A stretch of DNA of 64,000 bases from Halobaculum sp. CBA1158 (GCF_021431925.1 NZ_CP090371.1:2666001-2730000); one strand, 5' to 3'. Counted from the stretch's first letter, positions 3,894-53,244 are shown. The notes: generated by a model from the sequence alone, not told the origin. Made by a program: numbers and translations.

Positions 3894-3901
3894 TTCATAA
3901 A
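3894..3901 (-). promoter_or_regulatory. TATA-like box that fixes the DUF5811 start
   Basis: The minus strand reads TTTATGAA. The ATG inside it is an apparent start codon that cannot be used if this is the promoter. The next ATG at 3865 has leaderless spacing. Confidence 0.55.
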
Positions 3902-3974
3902 GCCGTCGGCGGTGGTGAACTGGACGCGGATAGAGGGGTGCAGACGAGCGCCGACCGGCCGACCGAGCCGGGAC

Positions 3975-3988
3975 GACTCGGCCGAGTC
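3975..3988. terminator. 14-base perfect palindrome after the lipoprotein gene
   Basis: GACTCGGCCGAGTC equals its own reverse complement and lies 4 bases past the stop codon of the minus-strand lipoprotein gene. It may mark the transcript end or a protein site; neither is shown by the sequence. Confidence 0.3.
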
Positions 3989-3992
3989 GCGG

Positions 3993-5039
3993 TCACCGAA
4001 GCTTCCAGACGCGCTTGGCCGGATCGGGAAGCTCCGAGGCCCCGAGGTAGGATCCGGGTCCGAACCGGAAGTAGAAGTACAGCGGGGAGGCGTCGCTCGG
4101 AACCTCGTACGCGAACGTGTACGCGTGTTCGCCCGGTTCGAGCGACATCGTGGCGGTCAGCCGGCGATCGTTCTCGTAGAACGACTGTCGCGGGGAGTGG
4201 CGCGAGCGGCCGTCGGCGAACTTGATCCCCCAGCGGGTACCCAACACCTCGATCGTCTCGTCACGCTCGTTGACGAGGGTCGCGTCGACGAGGACGAACT
4301 CGTTGCCCTCGCCCGCCTGCCTGTCGAAGGCGGTTCTGGAGAACTCGACGGAGTCGACCGTGGCGGCGAGGCCGTACCCGCCGGATCTCACCCGCTCGCC
4401 GATCTCCGGATGTGACCGATCGAACTCCTGTCGAAGCGTCGGCCCGTCGGTCGTCGAGTCGAGCGCGACCTCCGCGGTCTCGACGCCGCCGAAGTGGTCG
4501 GGATCGAGATCGAATCGAGCCGTCAAAGTGGCGTCGGTCGGCACCTCGTAGATCTGTCTGGCCCGTTCGACCTCTCCCGGGACGAGGACGGCCGCGAGCG
4601 GGCGGTTCTCGATCCCGCCGAACTTCGAGTCGTACGTCTCGCCCGTCCCGTCGACGAGCCTCGGGGAGTGTGTGTGGAACGCGTACCGTGGCGAGTCGCT
4701 GGCGTTCGCGACGGCGAACCGGAGGGTGAGGAACTCGTTGACCTCGCCGGGTTGGGTGCCGTCGAAGGAGTCCGCGCGGTCGATCGACTCGACGACGAGT
4801 CGGAGGTTCCGGCCGCGGACGAGTCCGCCGACGGCCGTCTCGACCGTGGACTCGACCTCGATCGGTTCGTCCGTCGGCGAGGCCGTGTCGGCGTCGGTCG
4901 GTGACCCGTCCGTCGCGGTGTCTGCGTCTGTCGCGGTGTCTGCGTTCGTGCCGCTGTCCGAGCTCCCGCCGGACGAACAGCCGGCGAAGGAAGTCGCCGT
5001 CGCCGCAGCGCCGATCGAGAGGAACGTTCGCCTCCGCAT
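3993..5039 (-). CDS. Tat lipoprotein with two DUF4352-like domains
   Basis: 348 aa. The N-terminus MRRRTFLSIGAAATATSFAGC has the twin-arginine motif and a lipobox Cys near residue 21, so it should be exported folded by Tat and anchored outside by a lipid. A low-complexity Thr/Asp/Ala linker (residues about 25-60) follows. Two similar immunoglobulin-like halves come next: one around LRLVVESIDRADSFDG to FDLDPDHFG, the other around YGLAATVDSVEFSRTAF to the end. Each has a region of the form NEFLTLRFAV or NEFVLVDATL, typical of DUF4352. Such proteins are extracellular and their ligands are unknown. It stands alone between DUF5811 and the arginine decarboxylase. Confidence 0.8.
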   Translation of the reverse strand: MRRRTFLSIGAAATATSFAGCSSGGSSDSGTNADTATDADTATDGSPTDADTASPTDEPIEVESTVETAVGGLVRGRNLRLVVESIDRADSFDGTQPGEVNEFLTLRFAVANASDSPRYAFHTHSPRLVDGTGETYDSKFGGIENRPLAAVLVPGEVERARQIYEVPTDATLTARFDLDPDHFGGVETAEVALDSTTDGPTLRQEFDRSHPEIGERVRSGGYGLAATVDSVEFSRTAFDRQAGEGNEFVLVDATLVNERDETIEVLGTRWGIKFADGRSRHSPRQSFYENDRRLTATMSLEPGEHAYTFAYEVPSDASPLYFYFRFGPGSYLGASELPDPAKRVWKLR

Positions 5040-9281: not shown

Positions 9282-10610
9282 ATGGATCTCGACGACGACA
9301 TCGCCGCGGCGGTCGGTCGCGCCTGGACCGACACCACGCCGTGGGAGTTCATCACCGATCTGACGGCGCTTGGCGGTCGGATGGGCGCGAGCGAGGGCGA
9401 GGCGCGGGCAGCCGACCTCGTCGCCGCCGCGTTCGAGGAGATCGGACTCGACCGCGTCCGGAGACAGCCGTTCGACGCGACCGAGTGGCGACGCGGCGAG
9501 ACGACGCTGCGGCTCACCGCGCCCGCCGATCGCACGTTCGACGCCATCGCGCTGCCGTACAGCCCCGCGGGCGAGGCGTCGGGCGAACTCGTCGACGTGG
9601 GATACGGTACACCGGCGGAGATCGACGAGACGGACGTGGACGGGAAGATCGCCGTCGCCTCGACGACGACGCCGGGCGACTCGCGGTTCGTCCACCGGAT
9701 GGAGAAGTTCGGCACCGCCGCCGAGGCGGGCGCGGAGGCGTTCGTCTTCGTCAACCACGTGCCCGGACAGCTGCCGCCGACCGGGTCGCTCACCTTCGGC
9801 GAGGAGGCGGCGATCCCGGCGGTCGGCGTGAGCGCGGAGACGGGCGCGTGGCTCACCGAGTACGCCAGCGAGGGCGGGGAGGCCGACCTGTCGGTCGACG
9901 CCGAGACCGTGCAGGGGGAGTCACAGAACGTCCTCGCGCGGACGGGTCCCGAGACCGACGAGTCCGTGCTCGTGGTCGCACACTACGACGGCCACGACAT
10001 CGCGGAGGGCGCGCTTGACAACGGCTGCGGGATCGCGACGCTGCTGGCGACCGCGCGGGTGCTCGCCGCCGCCGACCCCGACATCGGCGTCCGGTTCGCC
10101 GCCGTCGGCTGCGAGGAGACGGGGCTGCTCGGCTCCGAACACCTCGCGGCGACGACCGACCTGGACGGAGTGAAGGCCGTCGTCAACCTCGACGGAGCCG
10201 GCCGGTTTCGCGACCTCGTCGCGATGACGCACACCTCCGAGGCGACCGCCGGGGTCGCCGATCGCGTGAGCGACGAGACGCGACATCCGATCGAGGTGCG
10301 CGAGGAGCCGCACCCGTTCTCCGACCAGTGGCCGTTCGTCCGCCGGGGCGTGCCCGCGCTGCAGTTACACTCCGACTCCGGCGAGCGCGGGCGGGGATGG
10401 GGTCACACCCACGCCGACACCCGCGACAAGGTGGACGACCGGTGCATCCGCGAACACGGTGCGCTGGCGGCGCTGTCGATCCGGGAACTGGCCGACGAGT
10501 CGACCGAGGTGCCGTCGCTCGACGAGTACGAACTGGAGGCGGCGTTCCGGGAGGCCGACTTCGAGCCGGGGATGAAGGCCGCTGGGCTGTGGCCCGAGGA
10601 TTGGGCGTGA
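9282..10610 (+). CDS. M28 family zinc aminopeptidase
   Basis: 442 aa. Predicted co-catalytic two-zinc exopeptidase. The M28 ligands are visible in order: His/Asp in VVAHYDGHD, bridging Asp with Asn in GALDNGCG, Glu-Glu in VGCEETGLLGSE, Asp in VNLDGAG, and the final His in LQLHSDS or WGHTHADT. A PA-like insert (about residues 105-195) precedes the zinc domain. There is no signal peptide, so it is likely cytoplasmic. Start at 9282 gives MDLDDDIAAAVG and lies 25-31 bases after ACTTTTGC; a frame opening 27 bases earlier is less likely. It runs convergently into truA with 7 bases between stops. Confidence 0.88.
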   Translation: MDLDDDIAAAVGRAWTDTTPWEFITDLTALGGRMGASEGEARAADLVAAAFEEIGLDRVRRQPFDATEWRRGETTLRLTAPADRTFDAIALPYSPAGEASGELVDVGYGTPAEIDETDVDGKIAVASTTTPGDSRFVHRMEKFGTAAEAGAEAFVFVNHVPGQLPPTGSLTFGEEAAIPAVGVSAETGAWLTEYASEGGEADLSVDAETVQGESQNVLARTGPETDESVLVVAHYDGHDIAEGALDNGCGIATLLATARVLAAADPDIGVRFAAVGCEETGLLGSEHLAATTDLDGVKAVVNLDGAGRFRDLVAMTHTSEATAGVADRVSDETRHPIEVREEPHPFSDQWPFVRRGVPALQLHSDSGERGRGWGHTHADTRDKVDDRCIREHGALAALSIRELADESTEVPSLDEYELEAAFREADFEPGMKAAGLWPEDWA

Positions 10611-10617
10611 GCGCTCG

Positions 10618-11517
10618 TCACTCAGACGCCGCGGCGAGCACGTCGTCGAACACCCGGACGCGGGCCAGCGCGTCGACGCGACGCTCGGAGAACACCTCGC
10701 GGAGCGTCGCAACCGCCACGGGGTCGGGCTCGAACGCGACGCCCGGATAGGAGACGTCCGCGAGCACGAGCGGGTCCGGGGCCGCGGCCGCGACGCCGCG
10801 GGGCCCCGAGACTGGTTCGTCCCCGAGCACCTCGGCGATCCGGTCGAGGTCGGCGTCGCCGACGGCGACGCCCCTGACGACCGTCGCGATCCGGCGAACG
10901 CACTCGCGGGGGAAGCCGCCGGCGGCCACCGTGAGCGTGAGGAACTCGTCGCCGGCGCGGTCATCAGCGTCGCCTTCGACCCGATCACCGACGCGGTCGC
11001 CGGCGGCCGCGTCGTCGGACGCGACCGACACCGACAGATCGCGGCGCGTGTTCGGCCCGCGCGGGTCGCTCGTGAGGTTGTGCACGTCGTGCTCGCCCGA
11101 CAGCGCCGCGGCGGCGTCGCGGGCGCGGTCGCGGTCGGCCTCGGGCGCGTGGAGGTGATACCGGTACGTCCGGCGGGCCGCGTCGTGGGTCGCGTGGAAC
11201 TCCGGGTGTACGTCCGCGCTGGCCCACACCCGAACGCCCGCGGGGAGTTCGCTGGAGAAGGCGCGTGGCGTGAGCCAGTCGGGCGCGTCGAACGCGACCG
11301 TCTGGCGCACCGCGGAGACGCCGCGGTCGGTGCGGCCGGCGGCGGCGTAGCCGGGCGGGGTGTCACGGCCGCCGCCGCCCGCGTCGCGGTCGACCACGTC
11401 CAGAGCCGCAAGCGCGTCCAGGAGCGCGTCCTCGGCGGTCGGCACGTCGGGCTGGCGCTGGAAGCCGAAGAAGGGCCGGCCGTCGTAGGCGACGCGGTAC
11501 GCCCGACGGGTCGCCAT
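10618..11517 (-). CDS. truA: tRNA pseudouridine(38-40) synthase
   Basis: 299 aa. Isomerises uridines 38-40 in the anticodon stem-loop of tRNAs. The N-terminus YRVAYDGRPFFGFQRQ and the catalytic Asp in AAAGRTDRGVSAVRQT (about residue 63) are diagnostic. The C-terminal half has LTVAAGGFPRECVRRI, the usual TruA helix. A Gly/Asp/Ala insertion near residues 165-185 is a haloarchaeal feature. Its ATG overlaps the hisS stop by one base (TAATG), so it is translated from the hisS transcript. A much longer continuous frame runs upstream in this phase through hisS but is a shadow. Confidence 0.94.
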   Translation of the reverse strand: MATRRAYRVAYDGRPFFGFQRQPDVPTAEDALLDALAALDVVDRDAGGGGRDTPPGYAAAGRTDRGVSAVRQTVAFDAPDWLTPRAFSSELPAGVRVWASADVHPEFHATHDAARRTYRYHLHAPEADRDRARDAAAALSGEHDVHNLTSDPRGPNTRRDLSVSVASDDAAAGDRVGDRVEGDADDRAGDEFLTLTVAAGGFPRECVRRIATVVRGVAVGDADLDRIAEVLGDEPVSGPRGVAAAAPDPLVLADVSYPGVAFEPDPVAVATLREVFSERRVDALARVRVFDDVLAAASE

Positions 11518-12833
11518 TACGCGAAGTCGTCGAACGTCGGTCGGTCGAGTTCGCCCGGGAACTCGTCGACGGGCGCGGTCGTCTGGTCGCCGGAGGCCAT
11601 GTCCTTCACCGTCACCTCGTCGTTCGCGAGGTCCTGCTCGCCGGCGACGACGACCGTCTCGGCGTTGATCGAGTCGGCGTAGTTGAGCTGCGCGCCGAAG
11701 CTCCGGCCTGAGACGTCCGTCTCGACGACGTGACCCCGGGCCCGGAGGTCGCGGGCGATCCGTGCGGCGACGGGACGGGTGTCGCCGACCTGGAGGACGT
11801 AGTAGTCCGTCGAGACGGCGGCCTCGGGGGCGACGCCGGCGCGCTCGAGGAGGAGGCCGAGCGTGGCGTGCCCGGGCGCGACGCCGACGGCGGGGGTGGG
11901 CTGGCCGCCGAACTCCTCGATGAGGTCGTCGTAGCGGCCGCCGCCGAACACGGAGCGGCCGACCTCGCCGGTCGCGTCGAAGCACTCGAACACCGCGCCG
12001 GTGTAGTAGTCGAGCCCGCGAGCGGTTCGCAACGAGAGGTCGCAGTACTCGCCGACCCCGAAGTCGTCGGCCGCCGCGAGCACCGCGCGGAGGTTGTCGA
12101 CGGCCTCGGCGAGCTCCTCGCTGGCGGGCGCGAAGTCGGCGAGTTCCCCGAGGTTCGCGGGGTCGTCGACGCCGAGGAGGTCGTCGAACTCCCGGGCCTG
12201 GTCGTACGCGAGACCGGCGTCGTGCAGCAGGTCGAGATACTCGTTCTCGTCGACCTTCTCGGACTTGTCGACCGCGCGGATCGCCGCCGTCACGTCCACG
12301 TCCGCCTCGAACGACCGCAGCAGCGATCCGAGGATGTCGCGGTGGCTGACGCGGAACTCGAAGTCGTCGCCCGCGAGGCCCAGTTCCCGCAGCGCGTCGG
12401 CGGCGGTCGCGAGCACCTCGGCGTCGGCCGCCGGCTCCGACGAGCCGAAGACGTCGATGTTCGTCTGGTGGAACTCCCGGAAGCGGCCCTGCTGGACCGC
12501 CTCGTAGCGCCAGAACGGTCGCGTCGATACCCACTTCACGGGCTTGGACAGCTCCTGGGCCTTCGCGGCGTACATCCGCGCCACCGTCGGGGTGAGCTCC
12601 GGCGCGAGCGTCACGTGGCGGCCGCCGTGGTCCTCGAAGGCGTACAGCTCGTCGACGATGTCGTCGCCGGACTTGTCGGTCCACATCTCCGCCGGCTCCA
12701 GTCGCGGCGTGTCGATCTCGCGGAAGCCGTACCGCCGGGCGACCGACTCCAGCGTGTCGGTCACCTCCCGGCGGACGGCCATCTCGGGGGGGTAGAAATC
12801 GCGGAACCCCTTCAGGCGCTCGTAGGTGGGCAT
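11517..12833 (-). CDS. hisS: Histidyl-tRNA synthetase
   Basis: 438 aa, class II synthetase charging tRNA-His. Motif 1 region RLKGFRDFYPPEM, then TPTVARMYA, motif 2 REFHQTNIDVFG, the histidine A motif around ARGLDYYTGAVFECFD, motif 3 near APGHATLGLL, and a C-terminal anticodon domain (TDYYVLQVGDTRPVAARI). First gene of a hisS-truA operon. A TATA-like box GTTAAAC sits 26-32 bases before the ATG. Confidence 0.96.
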   Translation of the reverse strand: MPTYERLKGFRDFYPPEMAVRREVTDTLESVARRYGFREIDTPRLEPAEMWTDKSGDDIVDELYAFEDHGGRHVTLAPELTPTVARMYAAKAQELSKPVKWVSTRPFWRYEAVQQGRFREFHQTNIDVFGSSEPAADAEVLATAADALRELGLAGDDFEFRVSHRDILGSLLRSFEADVDVTAAIRAVDKSEKVDENEYLDLLHDAGLAYDQAREFDDLLGVDDPANLGELADFAPASEELAEAVDNLRAVLAAADDFGVGEYCDLSLRTARGLDYYTGAVFECFDATGEVGRSVFGGGRYDDLIEEFGGQPTPAVGVAPGHATLGLLLERAGVAPEAAVSTDYYVLQVGDTRPVAARIARDLRARGHVVETDVSGRSFGAQLNYADSINAETVVVAGEQDLANDEVTVKDMASGDQTTAPVDEFPGELDRPTFDDFA

Positions 12834-12857
12834 TACCGACCATGTATCGCGTCCGGG

Positions 12858-12865
12858 AGTTTAAC
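12858..12865 (-). promoter_or_regulatory. TATA-like box of the hisS-truA operon
   Basis: GGTTAAAC on the minus strand, 25-32 bases before the hisS ATG, gives leaderless spacing. Confidence 0.5.
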
Positions 12866-12907
12866 CCCGTGGTTCCGCTCGGGGGCACCGCGGGTCGACG
12901 GGGGCGG

Positions 12908-13798
12908 TCACACCGCCAGCAGGCCGACGCCGACGACCGCGAGCGCGGCGGCGACGAGGCGGGTCCCGAGCCGTCGTTCGCCGAGGAGCACCCCGCCGAG
13001 CAGGACGGCGACGACCGCCTGCGTGTTCACGACCGGCGAGGCGACGCTGGCCGGGAGCAGCGAGAAGGCGACCGAGGTGAGGTGTTCGGCCGTCGCGACG
13101 AGGAGGCCGAGCGCGATGAACGTCGTCGCCGGCGGTGTCGCCCGGTCGCCCGGCCAGTCGCGGGCGGCCAACGGGAGGAGGACGAGTAGGACGCCGCCGA
13201 GCACGACCACGACCAGCGCCTCCGGCGGCAGTCCCACGCCGTCGAGGACGGCCCGCTTGGACACGTCGCCGACGGCGTACGCGCCCGCCGACAGCAACGC
13301 CAACTGGGCGGGCCGGACCGTCACCGCCCGTCGGAGCGGCTCGGTCGGGTCGCCGCCGCGGTAGTTGGCGACGTACACCGCGACCGTGACGACGGCGATG
13401 CCGACGAACGCCAGCGCCGGGAGGTCGGCACCGAGCAGCAACAACTCCAGGGGAAGCACGAACGCGGGGACGACCTTGTTGATCGGCGTGACGTACGACA
13501 CCTCGCCGAGCGCGAGCGCGTTCACGAACAGGACGAATCCGACGCCGACGCCCAGCACCGACCCCACGAGCGCGAGCGACCCGCCGAGGCCCAGCGTCGC
13601 CGGCGTTGGCACGTCACCCGGAGAGAGCCGCGACAGCGCGACCGGCGCGTACCACGCCAGCGCGCAGGCGTTCACGAGGACGGTGAGCACCGTCGCGGGA
13701 ACGCCGGCGACGTAGCGCTTCAGCGCGAACAGATAGACGCCCCACAGCACCGCGGCCGCGACGGCGACGGCGATGCCGGGGGCGACGAGTGCGGACAC
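12908..13798 (-). CDS. EamA/DMT-superfamily permease
   Basis: 296 aa, almost entirely hydrophobic, about ten membrane helices arranged as two EamA repeats (VAVAAAVLWGVYLFALKRY at the start, and LALLSAGAYAVGDVSKRAVL opening the second half). The family exports or imports metabolites such as amino acids, sugars or purines; the substrate cannot be inferred. Convergent neighbours and separate spacing suggest a single-gene transcript, with a TTTTC box near 13825. Confidence 0.85.
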   Translation of the reverse strand: MSALVAPGIAVAVAAAVLWGVYLFALKRYVAGVPATVLTVLVNACALAWYAPVALSRLSPGDVPTPATLGLGGSLALVGSVLGVGVGFVLFVNALALGEVSYVTPINKVVPAFVLPLELLLLGADLPALAFVGIAVVTVAVYVANYRGGDPTEPLRRAVTVRPAQLALLSAGAYAVGDVSKRAVLDGVGLPPEALVVVVLGGVLLVLLPLAARDWPGDRATPPATTFIALGLLVATAEHLTSVAFSLLPASVASPVVNTQAVVAVLLGGVLLGERRLGTRLVAAALAVVGVGLLAV

Positions 13799-13904
13799 GC
13801 TGACCGCTCGGCGGTCGGGGGTGAAAACGCCGCGGATGTGCGCCGTCGAGCGCCGTCCCTCGGCCGCGGTCCGCCGGCCGTCTCAGCACAGTCCGACGGC
13901 CGTC

Positions 13905-50094: not shown

Positions 50095-50165
50095 GCGCCG
50101 TTGGTCCAGTGGTAGGACATTAGCTTCCCAAGCTAATAGCCCGGGTTCAATTCCCGGACGGCGCA
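50095..50165 (+). tRNA. tRNA-Gly(CCC)
   Basis: Acceptor GCGCCGT pairs perfectly with ACGGCGC. The anticodon stem TTAGC/GCTAA holds loop TTCCCAA, giving anticodon CCC. The T arm is CCGGG TTCAATT CCCGG and the discriminator is A at 50165. CCA is not encoded and there is no intron. The last 22 bases plus 2 flanking bases (50144-50167) recur exactly at 50251-50274. Confidence 0.96.
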
Positions 50166-50191
50166 TTTCTGCCGAACGAAGTGAGGCGAAA
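50166..50191 (+). repeat. GA-capped mini-hairpin directly after tRNA-Gly
   Basis: Left stem TTTC(T)GCC pairs with GGCGAAA (one bulged T). The top is GA, AC, triloop GAA, GT, GA. AC and GT pair; the two GA dinucleotides face each other as tandem G-A mismatches. It is one of seven hairpins of this class in the window. Confidence 0.75.
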
Positions 50192-50199
50192 TTGCCGAC

Positions 50200-50262
50200 G
50201 GGAATTGAAGTAGACCAGTCGCGCGCAGCGAAGCGAGCACGTCTGGGCGTGGTTCAATTCCC
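50200..50262 (+). ncRNA. Candidate structured element of tRNA-Gly locus
   Basis: Parsed 5' to 3': GGGAATTGAA (50200-50209, an inverted copy of the T arm of the adjacent tRNA-Gly); GTAGA (50210-50214); CCAGTCGCGC; apex with GC(GAA)GC at 50228-50234; GCACGTCTGG (pairs with the previous stem, two mismatches); GCGTGG (50247-50252); TTCAATTCCC (50253-50262, part of the second direct copy). Basal stem 10 perfect pairs. The same order and the same internal loop occur after tRNA-Lys. Whether it acts as RNA or as folded DNA is unknown; the ncRNA type is a working label. Confidence 0.5.
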
Positions 50263-50274
50263 GGACGGCGCATT
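50251..50274 (+). repeat. Exact 24-base copy of the tRNA-Gly 3' end
   Basis: Identical to 50144-50167, covering from two bases before the T loop through the discriminator and two flanking bases, 107 bases downstream. The 5' half of the tRNA is not copied. It looks like an integration-type target duplication, but only about 83 bases lie between the copies. A second GA-capped hairpin (50276-50292, top GA AC GGA GT GA) follows this copy too. Confidence 0.85.
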
Positions 50275-50292
50275 CTTCGAACGGAGTGAGAA

Positions 50293-50486
50293 CCGCGGCC
50301 GTTGACCGGCGGAAGCGCCGGGTTCTCGTCCGATCCCCGAGCACCGCGGGCGGCGGTCACCCTCCGGATCGAACCGACACTCGGCCCGGGCGCTCCGGTC
50401 GCGACGGGGGCCCGTTCGCGTCGGCGCGGCCCCGCTCGTCGCCGGCGTCGCCGCGGTCACGCGAGCGCCGACGGAGAAAGCGGCAG
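50293..50486. other. Remainder of the spacer before the Nmad3 gene
   Basis: With the tRNA tail repeats this makes a 321-base gene-free region. After 50293 it is GC-rich and without further copies, hairpins of the class, or a plausible gene. Confidence 0.4.
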
Positions 50487-51242
50487 TCACTCGGCGTCGC
50501 GACGGATCCACGCGGCGGGGTCGTCGTCGAGGCGGCCCCGGAGGTCGGCGGTCGCGTCGGCGTCGTACCGGAGGACGCGCCGCCACCAGGGACCCTTCCC
50601 GGAATCGCTCGACAGCTCGGTGACCAGTCGGTTCGCCGTCGCGCCGGCGTCGGGGGACGACAGCGGGACCGCGCGGTCGAACAGCCGCGATCCGTCGGGG
50701 TCGCCCCGGACGAGCACGGACGCGTCGAACGACTCGCGGCGGACGTGTGCGTTCGAGGCGAACCGCTCCCGGGTCGCCGCGTCGGCCTCGCGGTACTCGT
50801 CGCCGCCGAGCACCTCGGCGACGCGGAACTCGCCGATCAGGAAGCAGCCCCACTCCGGAGGGAGCCAATCGACGGGGTCGCCGTCGCTGTCGCCGTCGCC
50901 GTCACCGTCGGCGGCGACGGTCAGCGTCGCGTAGAACAACAGCGAGTCGCCGGGGTCGAGTTCGGCGATCGGGCCGGCCTTCACGCCGTGCGGGTCGCCG
51001 TAGGTGTGCGACTCCCGGCCGAGGACGCCCGCGAACTCCGGGTCGAGGTGGACCGGCAGGTCCGCGGCCTCGGGTGGGACGAACCGAGTCAGGCCCAGGT
51101 CGGCGTAGGTGGGCACCGGCTCGGCGGTCGGCTCGCGCTCGGGGATCGGGACGTAGACGAACGAGCCGTCCGGGTACACAGGCCCGCGGCGACCCGGGAG
51201 GTTCGTGTTGGCGGCGACGTTGATGGCGACCGCGCGGGGCAT
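50487..51242 (-). CDS. Nmad3-type putative nucleotide-modification protein
   Basis: 251 aa. MPRAVAINVAANTNLPGRRG and VYPDGSFVYVPIPE are the opening I associate with the Nmad3 family, predicted from comparative genomics to modify nucleotides in DNA or nucleotide pools. The middle (DPGDSLLFYATLTVA, WGCFLIGEFRVAEVL) is a beta-rich fold with possible nucleotide binding; a Gly/Asp run (residues 120-130) comes from expanded GTCGCC codons. The activity is unproven. It is adjacent to rdgB, which cleans non-canonical purine nucleotides, but on its own promoter. Confidence 0.75.
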   Translation of the reverse strand: MPRAVAINVAANTNLPGRRGPVYPDGSFVYVPIPEREPTAEPVPTYADLGLTRFVPPEAADLPVHLDPEFAGVLGRESHTYGDPHGVKAGPIAELDPGDSLLFYATLTVAADGDGDGDSDGDPVDWLPPEWGCFLIGEFRVAEVLGGDEYREADAATRERFASNAHVRRESFDASVLVRGDPDGSRLFDRAVPLSSPDAGATANRLVTELSSDSGKGPWWRRVLRYDADATADLRGRLDDDPAAWIRRDAE

Positions 51243-51364
51243 GCGACGGCGTTGCGTCGGCGACGGCTTAGCGTCGGCGACCGTCCCGAGCGAGCCCAAC
51301 GGCTTCTCACTAGCGTTCGGCGAACCACGCCGAGACCCTCGCTCCGCTCGGGCCTCGTCTACTA

Positions 51365-52018
51365 TCAGTCGCTACGCTCCTGATACCACTCCCCGAACTT
51401 CTCCAGCGCCCGCCCGCGGTGGGAGATCGCGTTCTTCTCACCGGGACCCATCTCGGCGAACGTCGAGCCGTCGTACTCGAAGATCGGGTCGTAGCCGAAG
51501 CCGCCGTCGCCGCGGGCCTCGACGACCTCGCCGCGGACGACGCCGGCGAACAGCTTCACCGGGAGGGACTCCGTTCCCTCCCCGTCGGCGTCGCTCGCGG
51601 GGTCGCTGTCGGCTCCCGCGGCCGCGGCGGCGACGCGGTCACCGCGGTCGACCGGGTCCGGCGAGGCGTCGAACGGCTCGCCGTCGCAGTAGGCGAGGAC
51701 GCAGCGGAACTCGGCGCGGCGGTCGTCGAGTTCGCGGTGGACGAGCCGCCGGACGGCCTCGACGCCGAGGGTGTCCTCGGCGTACGCGGAGTAGGGGCCG
51801 GGGAAGCCGTCGAGGCCGCGGACGAACAGCCCGGCGTCGTCGACGATCACCGGCTCGCCCGCGTGGCGGTACGCCTCCCTGGCACCGCGGGCGGCGATCG
51901 GTTCGAGGTCGTGCGCCTGGACCTCCGCGTAGTCGAACTCGAGTTGGGCGACCGCGTCGCCGAGGTACTCCTCGGCCTCGCGGACCTTGCCCGGGTTGGT
52001 CGTGACGTACCGAAGCAT
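51365..52018 (-). CDS. rdgB: XTP/dITP diphosphatase (RdgB/HAM1)
   Basis: 217 aa. Hydrolyses ITP, dITP and XTP so they are not built into nucleic acids. TTNPGKVREAEEYLG at the start, the catalytic VDDAGLFVRGLDGFPGPYSAY, and GFGYDPIFEYDGSTFAEMGPGEKNAISHRGRALEKF at the end are all family signatures. A 25-residue Ala/Asp/Ser insertion in the middle (near 125-150) is a haloarchaeal expansion. Start 52018 (MLRYVTTN). Confidence 0.94.
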   Translation of the reverse strand: MLRYVTTNPGKVREAEEYLGDAVAQLEFDYAEVQAHDLEPIAARGAREAYRHAGEPVIVDDAGLFVRGLDGFPGPYSAYAEDTLGVEAVRRLVHRELDDRRAEFRCVLAYCDGEPFDASPDPVDRGDRVAAAAAGADSDPASDADGEGTESLPVKLFAGVVRGEVVEARGDGGFGYDPIFEYDGSTFAEMGPGEKNAISHRGRALEKFGEWYQERSD

Positions 52019-52161
52019 ACCGGCGCTGGGGTCGGCCCCGGCAAAGCCGCGTCGATGTCCGGTTCCGAACGTGCGGGAGGAGACCCAACCGGCGTCAGAG
52101 CAGTCGGCGAGAACGGCCACCCCCGGGAGCCTTTTGCTTCGTCGGGTCCGACTCACGCTCG

Positions 52162-52944
52162 ATGAGTGACGAGCGCCCCGACGGCGGCGACCGCGGCGGT
52201 CGCGCCGGCGATGACGATCGCGACGATCGCCGCGGTCGCGGGGATCGCAGCGATCGCGGCGGCCGCCGCGGGGATGTCGATCACCGCGACGGCGACTCGG
52301 GGCTTCGGCCCGCGGACCGGCGAGCCGAGGTCGGCGAGCCGGTCGTTCGCGGCGACCCGGCGGTCGCCGGCGAACGCGCCGAGCGGGCCGCGCGCTTCGA
52401 CCCCGACGACGACGAGAGCCTCGCCGAGGCCGCCGAGACCGTCCGTCAGTTCGCCGGCGACGCCGTCGGCGGCGACGACAACGTCGTGATGCTGCGCGGG
52501 GCGGCCGCCTGCGCGGCGCTCGTGCGCGGCCACGGTTCGTACAAGGCGGCCGCCGAGGCCGCCGGCGACGGCGTGCAGGTGTCGTTCATCCGGAAGTGGG
52601 CGCGGGTGCACGACCTCCCCGAGTCCGTCCGGCGACACGTCGCCCGCGGCGACATCGCCCCGACGGCGGCGAAGCACGTCGCCCGCGTCGCCGGCGACGC
52701 GCGCTTCCGGGTGGCGTGGGCGATCCTCGACGCCGATCTCACGGTCCGAGAGGTCCGCCGGATCGCCTCGGCGATCAACGACGGCACCGACCCCGAGATC
52801 GCCCTGCGCGAGGAGGGCGTCACCCCCGGCAGACTTCGGGTCGACCTCCCGCCGGCGGTGTACCGACGGCTCAGGGACCGCGCCTCCCTGGAGAACCGCG
52901 AGCCCGGCGACGTGATCGCCGACGCGCTCGAGACCTACCGCTGA
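52162..52944 (+). CDS. ParB-HTH-like plus ribbon-helix-helix protein (DUF7119-like)
   Basis: 260 aa. The first 70 residues are a disordered Arg/Asp/Gly tract. Residues about 100-205 read like the HTH part of ParB: HGSYKAAAEAAGDGVQVSFIRKWARVHDLPESVRRHVARGDIAPTAAKHVARV and then AWAILDADLTVREVRRIASAI. Residues 220-260 (GRLRVDLPPAVYRRLRDRASLENREPGDVIADALETY) match a ribbon-helix-helix DNA-binding unit. I recall the haloarchaeal name DUF7119. No ParA or N-terminal ParB CTPase domain is present. It is likely a DNA-binding protein; its target is unknown. Divergent from rdgB. Confidence 0.72.
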   Translation: MSDERPDGGDRGGRAGDDDRDDRRGRGDRSDRGGRRGDVDHRDGDSGLRPADRRAEVGEPVVRGDPAVAGERAERAARFDPDDDESLAEAAETVRQFAGDAVGGDDNVVMLRGAAACAALVRGHGSYKAAAEAAGDGVQVSFIRKWARVHDLPESVRRHVARGDIAPTAAKHVARVAGDARFRVAWAILDADLTVREVRRIASAINDGTDPEIALREEGVTPGRLRVDLPPAVYRRLRDRASLENREPGDVIADALETYR

Positions 52945-52982
52945 TCGGGGGCGGTCGTCGCGTCGGCGACGCTTCGTAAACG

Positions 52983-52988
52983 CTTATG
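52983..52988 (+). promoter_or_regulatory. TATA-like box of tRNA-Lys
   Basis: CTTATG, 26-31 bases before the first tRNA base, preceded by AT-richer TTCGTAAA. Confidence 0.5.
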
Positions 52989-53013
52989 CGGGCACGACGG
53001 TAAGTCCGGCCCA

Positions 53014-53087
53014 GGGCTGGTAGCTCAGTTAGGGAGAGCGTCCGGCTTTTAACCGGACGGTCGGGGGTTCGAATCCCTCCCAGCCCG
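53014..53087 (+). tRNA. tRNA-Lys(TTT)
   Basis: Acceptor GGGCTGG pairs with CCAGCCC. The anticodon stem TCCGG/CCGGA holds loop CTTTTAA, anticodon TTT. T arm GGGGG TTCGAAT CCCTC (one G-T pair), discriminator G at 53087. CCA not encoded, no intron. The last 22 bases plus 2 flanking bases (53066-53089) recur exactly at 53192-53215. Confidence 0.96.
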
Positions 53088-53091
53088 CTCC

Positions 53092-53133
53092 CGTGTGCCG
53101 CACGTGACGAACAAAGTGAGGAGCCGCGGCGCA
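53092..53133 (+). repeat. Hairpin after tRNA-Lys with GA-class top
   Basis: GTGTGCCGC and GCGGCGCAC form a nine-pair outer stem (one G-T). Its loop contains GA, AC, triloop AAA, GT, GA (53110-53120), the same class as after tRNA-Gly although the triloop is AAA and the inner flanks are unpaired. Confidence 0.6.
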
Positions 53134-53145
53134 CGGACGGTGTCC

Positions 53146-53205
53146 GAGGGATCCGAAGTAGACGGCGGCGAGCGAAGCGAGCCGACGGCGTGGTTCGAAT
53201 CCCTC
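53146..53205 (+). ncRNA. Candidate structured element of tRNA-Lys locus
   Basis: Parsed 5' to 3': GAGGGATCCGAA (53146-53157, an inverted copy of the tRNA-Lys T arm with one mismatch); GTAGA (53158-53162); CGGCGGC; apex GAGCGAAGCGA (53170-53180); GCCGACG (pairs with the previous stem, one mismatch); GCGTGG (53188-53193); TTCGAATCCCTC (53194-53205, in the second direct copy). The basal stem differs from the tRNA-Gly locus exactly as the two tRNAs differ, while GTAGA, GCGTGG and the apex core are unchanged. ncRNA type is a working label. Confidence 0.5.
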
Positions 53206-53215
53206 CCAGCCCGCT
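53192..53215 (+). repeat. Exact 24-base copy of the tRNA-Lys 3' end
   Basis: Identical to 53066-53089 and 126 bases downstream. It covers the same part of the tRNA and has the same length as the tRNA-Gly copy. Confidence 0.85.
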
Positions 53216-53244
53216 GTTCTCACGAGCGAAGCGAGTGTGAACAG
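53214..53244 (+). repeat. GA-capped mini-hairpin after the tRNA-Lys copy
   Basis: CTGTTCTCAC pairs with GTGTGAACAG (one mismatch); the top is GA, GC, GAA, GC, GA. This includes the GCGAAGC heptamer, known as an exceptionally stable DNA mini-hairpin. Confidence 0.8.

Follow-up and report, generated by a model that had tools for sequence, protein, structure and literature searches.

Introduction

The islands and proviruses that tyrosine recombinases insert into transfer RNA (tRNA) genes enter near the 3' end of the gene, restore it with a tail that they carry, and leave the old tail behind as a direct repeat that stops at the discriminator base, with precise empty sites in relatives; a review of archaeal recombinases counts the T stem-loop among the targeted tRNA regions (PMC8371274). 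Here, we describe small hairpin-bearing units that resemble these elements in all such respects and that lie behind tRNA genes in a 64,000-nucleotide stretch of the genome of Halobaculum sp. CBA1158 (GCF_021431925.1, NZ_CP090371.1:2666001-2730000; hereafter, the window). Two hairpins, at 50200-50262 behind tRNA-Gly-CCC and at 53146-53205 behind tRNA-Lys-TTT, are members of a family that spans the Halobacteria. Compared to integrating elements, the units are only 80-190 bp long, contain no gene, end in a conserved hairpin built on a T-arm repeat, stack into arrays, and occur behind many tRNA species across the whole class. They encode no integrase, and one integrase query matched only island or tRNA-Arg loci in the contigs fetched.

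Integrons provide another comparison. Their attC sites, the partners of attI, are likewise folded hairpins with a duplex foot, an unpaired asymmetric spacer and a variable upper part, set in modular arrays of one orientation and with the exchange point before a GTT-like foot. In contrast, the foot of the tRNA-tail units comes from the T arm and reads GTTCRAA rather than the R box GTTRRRY, gene cassettes are absent, and the target is a tRNA instead of attI. Archaeal integrons have been reported from metagenome-assembled genomes only, in nine phyla, and a word search in that report's text gave no mention of Halobacteria (PMC9668308); among the 24 genomes searched, none held an integron integrase (TIGR02249) above cut-off, the best match reaching 50 bits against 265. 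REP elements, which are GTAG-tagged and linked to RAYT transposases, are also short palindromes with mismatches, and one family of units (family A, with the internal loops GTAGA/GCGTGG) has GTAG at its 5' foot. The GTAG (or CGTC) tag is, however, confined to family A and missing from the CAGGGA/GACCG and CCCTG/CTCCGG families, and the units differ further in being tied to tRNA tails; a word search in the text of a REP survey gave no haloarchaeal entry (PMC3733652). PATEs and IS200/IS605-type haloarchaeal elements are similarly gene-less with near-terminal palindromes (PMC3119063), but PATEs lack a target duplication whereas the units duplicate 20-22 nt of tRNA tail.

Partial tRNAs have been recorded in haloarchaea before. 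Haloferax gibbonsii LR2-5 has 11, several directly adjoining a full copy, and the passages considered here mention neither a hairpin nor a left arm, nor loop families or a pattern across the class (PMC7921747); partial tRNAs adjoining full tRNAs are also mentioned in PMC3119063. Those of H. gibbonsii are possibly the same objects as the units described below. Apart from such passing mentions, we found no prior description of tail-hairpin units in the open-access literature, and elements carried by about 94% of the Halobacteria genomes sampled have apparently been noted only as stray "partial tRNAs."

Anatomy of the tRNA-tail units

The Gly unit, on the + strand like the Lys unit, follows the tRNA-Gly-CCC gene (50095..50165, +; ARAGORN, Rfam RF00005), whose own tail from T54 to discriminator base 73 occupies 50146-50165. 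A spacer hairpin S, read from the sequence as TTTCTGCC..GGCGAAA + TTGCCGAC (50166..50199), separates the gene from the left arm L, GGGAATTGAA (50200..50209), which is the reverse complement of the T-loop and 3' T-stem of this tRNA. The core (50210..50252) belongs to family A, with a GTAGA loop, an upper hairpin with a GC(GAA)GC apex and a GCGTGG loop, and is followed by tail copy T1 (50253..50272), identical to the tRNA-Gly-CCC tail at 20/20 positions. The Lys unit repeats this order behind the tRNA-Lys-TTT gene (53014..53088, +; ARAGORN, Rfam RF00005; own tail 53068-53087): a spacer containing hairpin S, GTGTGCCGC..GCGGCGCAC (53088..53147), a left arm, GGGATCCGAA, with a single mismatch against the tail copy (53148..53157), a family-A core with GTAGA loop, upper hairpin and GCGTGG loop (53158..53193), and a tail copy T1 that matches the tRNA-Lys-TTT tail at 20/20 positions (53194..53213). 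Covariance model matches were obtained for the Gly core at E 1.9e-18 and for the Lys core at E 6.6e-12, each sequence being itself in the model seed, and nothing but tRNAs matched Rfam above gathering score in the window.

A sequence-only reading of the window had placed two stem-loops at these positions and parsed them identically, and both coordinates and parse hold. It was also right that the arms are tRNA-derived, though it missed that they match the specific tRNA next to them, and the GTAGA/GCGTGG loops that it saw unchanged are shared by both units but mark one family only, other loops being present in the same genome.

The same anatomy recurs in 121 units that we collected through the tail copy rather than the loops, at loci drawn in part from the loop pattern. 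At positions 53-73, tail copies agree with the adjacent tRNA at 95-100%, and identity drops towards background immediately past 73, whereas most acceptor positions match other tRNA types at only 26-57%. In the common type, the copy runs from G53 to discriminator base 73 and ends there, while the pairing partner of the left arm is the T-loop and 3' T-stem (T54 to about 64), not the acceptor. Between the arms, the commonest design sets an upper hairpin between a loop of 5 nt on the left and one of 6 nt on the right, and the loop families include GTAGA/GCGTGG, CAGGGA/GACCGNGG, CCCTG/CTCCGG, CACG/GGGAG and CTACG/ATCGAG; a second hairpin, spacer S, separates the left arm from the tRNA end. Halobacterial units lie nearly always 3' of the tRNA, on the same strand and in a single orientation, with up to five units behind one tRNA and a median period of 118 nt for first units. 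The Halobaculum genome holds 23 units behind 16 of its ~45 tRNAs. In a second type (Z), only the T-stem/acceptor part is copied, the copied tail begins in the T-stem, and the left arm pairs with the acceptor strand; units of this type were seen at loci L104, L114 (host genome), L141, L150, L151, L152 and L196.

Covariation and the selected molecule

Folded as RNA, the two window hairpins gave z-scores of -4.2 and -2.7 against dinucleotide shuffles, and folded as DNA of the + strand they gave -4.3 and -2.9. We then compared 57 distinct family-A sequences, gathered with the loops fixed by the search pattern and the stems left free, with shuffles. Standard pairs filled 92.8% of cells (74.4 +/- 0.9 in shuffles), both sides had changed in 179 cells of the whole structure (53 +/- 6.6), and the covariation score was 0.484 (0.160; slid controls at or below 0.125). 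The view that covarying stems mark a selected nucleic-acid structure, first taken from the two hairpins by themselves, is thereby borne out in their relatives, with two restrictions. The invariance of the loops in this alignment is no evidence, because the search pattern fixed them, and compensating change is upheld by the upper stems, whereas the basal-stem difference between Gly and Lys alone is not independent evidence because the right arm copies each tRNA's own tail. Among sister species of the genus, the upper stems at the orthologous tRNA-Gly-CCC locus are CCAG/CTGG, CGAG/CTCG and TCGG/CCGA.

Wobble pairs accounted for 3/8 of the non-Watson-Crick cells in upper stems, where counts are small, and for 11/43 in basal stems, against 32/38 in the acceptor stems of the tRNAs at those loci. 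In the basal arms, the ratio of G-T to A-C mismatches was 28:26, and wobble pairs were no commoner than expected from neutral change. Among 103 cores, the apex loop was GNA in 29 (28 closed by C-G), GNYA in 13 and GNRA in 2, and a simple script left the others unclassified; DNA mini-hairpins of extraordinary stability are reported for GNA and GNNA loops that sit on two G-C pairs (PMC4686876). Taken as sequence evidence, the wobble counts and apex loop types appear to favour DNA over RNA as the selected molecule, and the DNA-type apex loops together with the asymmetric spacer hint indirectly that recombination may involve folded single-stranded DNA. A K-turn or loop E motif in GTAGA/GCGTGG was considered and rejected, the right strand having no GA.

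Distribution in Halobacteria

The covariance model matched 228 of 242 Halobacteria genomes (~94%) and 70 of 74 genera, with up to 22 matches per genome, and had 0 matches in about 124 other genomes of the phylum. Further haloarchaeal homologues had been anticipated from the window alone; we looked both for their absence and for homologues with lost stem pairing, and found neither. The narrower pattern GAAGTAGA..GCGTGGTTC occurs twice in the Halobaculum genome, as the Gly and Lys units, and in 21 of 170 family genomes with about 25 tRNA-linked matches, while a reversed control pattern had 0 matches in the same 170. A scan of 84,980 species genomes returned 58 pattern loci, nearly all haloarchaeal, and the few non-haloarchaeal matches, with no tRNA nearby, are chance. 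Among the covariance-model matches listed for Halobaculum, all but two lie behind a tRNA, the exceptions being a solo core in the window and a match that follows a tRNA-Thr tail displaced by ~38 kb from its tRNA.

Presence, absence and exchange of units

Units are present or absent as precise blocks. At tRNA-Gly-CCC, 7 of 11 species of the genus have the unit and 4 do not, and alignment of empty with filled loci reveals insertions of 106 nt (G018 vs G017) and 113 nt (G013 vs G015) at the tRNA end, homology resuming after exactly one unit. Spacer hairpin S of the Gly unit (50166..50199) shows block-wise replacement at orthologous loci within the genus. In Halomicrococcus gelatinilyticus, tRNA-Gly-TCC and tRNA-Gly-CCC share identical cores of 49 nt and 60 nt. 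Around the 49-nt core, the arms are an exact match to the tRNA at each locus, and around the 60-nt core the match is poorer; the two loci combine spacers with cores in different ways, spacers and cores being shuffled independently of each other.

The tRNAs beside units are intact, unlike genes with bulge-helix-bulge introns, except on the Haloarcula halophila plasmid NZ_CP119561.1 (locus L203, about 3900-4060), where tRNA-Cys-GCA is split exactly at G53|T54 and has a single tail. The insert consists of a spacer hairpin and a family-C hairpin, and the plasmid carries an array of about 20 tRNAs with a TROVE-domain gene adjacent. It is possible that this split tRNA is a T-loop intron or a dead gene. 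A bulge-helix-bulge intron was rejected, the motif not being visible by eye and the RNA fold of the split tRNA-Cys giving no hint of it, as was the link to TROVE and Y RNA that the plasmid suggested, the Halobaculum genome being without a TROVE protein.

Islands also meet these tRNA ends. At tRNA-Thr-CGT (C1:576848-576920), an island has left a tail copy starting GGTTC, with a tyrosine recombinase gene about 0.6 kb off, and from this island, T-loop entry by the tyrosine recombinase class probably occurs in the Halobaculum genome. About 38 kb lie between this tRNA and the displaced tail copy, which stands with a degenerate hairpin unit (L191, C1:538000-539300), as expected of an integrated island. 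That the hairpin is the attachment site of the adjoining integrase island in Halopiger (L079) and Natronococcus (L072) was rejected, because the right end of the island (CTGCAGCGCCCA) precedes the spacer hairpin and entry was therefore upstream of an existing unit. In a sister species (G016; L131, about 10270-13800), a 3.4-kb insert breaks tRNA-Gly-CCC in the anticodon arm, and the old 3' half keeps its hairpin unit.

A putative mobile unit and its alternatives

Given that tail duplication is limited to the 3' end of the gene, that empty sites are clean and that the acceptor copy is near-perfect, we favour units moved in trans; pairing cannot account for the kept acceptor part, because only the stretch from T54 to about 64 has its match in the left arm. 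We propose, with a probability of roughly 0.45, that the units are gene-less mobile units that enter tRNA genes at G53|T54 by way of a folded-DNA attachment site and a putative trans-acting tyrosine recombinase. A gene-less DNA element of ~80-190 bp, made up of tail, spacer hairpin and folded attachment hairpin, would insert at this point and supply a replacement tail, leaving the gene intact and displacing the old tail downstream. In the attachment hairpin, the T-arm inverted repeat would enclose an asymmetric internal loop and an upper stem that ends in a very stable type of DNA mini-hairpin. A site-specific tyrosine-type recombinase provided in trans would recognise this hairpin, probably as extruded or single-stranded DNA, with strand exchange at the T-loop, and repeated excision would keep the displaced tail perfect because the tRNA would be rebuilt from it each time. 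Of the two roles raised in the sequence-only reading, that of a protein-binding site for a recombinase agrees better with the data than that of a processing signal, because units are precisely present or absent, the tail copy ends at the discriminator, and mismatches have no G-U preference. If the units are indeed mobile, a class-wide family of minimal mobile units would be added to archaeal genomes, with consequences for how partial tRNAs are annotated and new recombinases are sought; if recombination acts on folded DNA, they would join integrons and some phage attachment sites as another natural example, one in which the target is rewritten to match each tRNA.

Several observations weigh against this proposal. 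We identified no recombinase for the units; tyrosine recombinases occur in 24 of 24 genomes tested, in equal number in hairpin-rich and hairpin-free ones, and a relation between their number and hairpin presence was rejected. Neither a circular form nor an excision product was seen, and the units are without cargo. Phage records contained 0 hairpins and IMG/VR a single chance match; a viral or plasmid origin was rejected on these results, both plasmid matches being again tRNA-linked. The left arm has no donor-tRNA signature, its mismatches not being piled up where tRNAs differ, and re-copying or selection of the arms must therefore follow each move. All cores share one orientation, an outcome not guaranteed by simple exchange between inverted arms, and empty sites could arise by deletion between the 20-bp direct repeats.

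A somewhat unlikely variant would be an integron-like system of the Halobacteria's own, in which folded-DNA attachment hairpins use the tRNA T arm as a universal dock, hairpin cassettes are inserted, stacked and exchanged behind any tRNA gene, and each move rewrites the arms from the recipient tRNA. A different kind of explanation would make the hairpin a structured RNA in the trailer of a read-through tRNA transcript, acting with the tail copy in tRNA 3' processing or as a switch. Strong covariation would fit such a role, as would the position 3' of the tRNA on its strand in one orientation and the ability of the left arm to pair with the real tRNA tail; the lowest-energy fold of 50150-50275 in fact pairs the left arm with the genuine tail and not with the copy. 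We nevertheless regard an RNA trailer as unlikely, given that the acceptor part of the copy, to base 73, lies outside the hairpin and is yet 95-100% kept, that G-U is not favoured over A-C as it is in tRNA stems of the same genomes, that the tetraloops are GNYA and not GNRA, and that sister species do without whole units.

We also doubt that the units are functionless products of mutation, with slippage or failed integration duplicating the tail and template switching at palindromes writing the left arm and keeping the stems paired. Internal loops should be lost under template switching, but GTAGA/GCGTGG and other loop sets are found repeatedly across the class; a mutational origin also sits poorly with presence in 94% of sampled Halobacteria genomes against none of about 124 phylum relatives, and with common-type copies that start at G53 and end at 73. 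What it does capture is the near-perfect Watson-Crick pairing of stems with few wobble intermediates, the exchange of spacer hairpins as blocks within conserved flanks, and the usual fit of the arms to the local tail. Very improbable, finally, is a benefit to the cell in which tail copies and hairpins act as decoys that shield tRNA genes from viruses and islands, or donate sequence for repair. Such a role needs neither a hairpin nor a matching left arm, and islands appear to have entered the true tRNA despite the presence of a unit, though in Halopiger, Natronococcus and Halobaculum sp. CBA1158 units or their remnants do lie beyond an island, apart from their tRNA, which makes tRNA ends contested sites.

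Other hairpins in the window

The solo family-A core of the window, GTAGACGAGGCC..GGTCTCGGCGTGGTTC (51320..51372, - strand; covariance model match E 5e-5), has no tRNA arms and lies behind an XTP/dITP diphosphatase frame. A counterpart is found at the same gene in a sister species (L030), and together they indicate that family-A cores may settle outside tRNA loci too. Short hairpins with GA/GA steps and GNA loops, for example GAACGGAGTGAG and GAGCGAAGCGAG, occur at 50273-50291 and 53215-53243 and in many spacers. They follow haloarchaeal tRNA tails, are swapped as blocks between orthologous loci, and possibly constitute a general haloarchaeal family of mini-hairpins.

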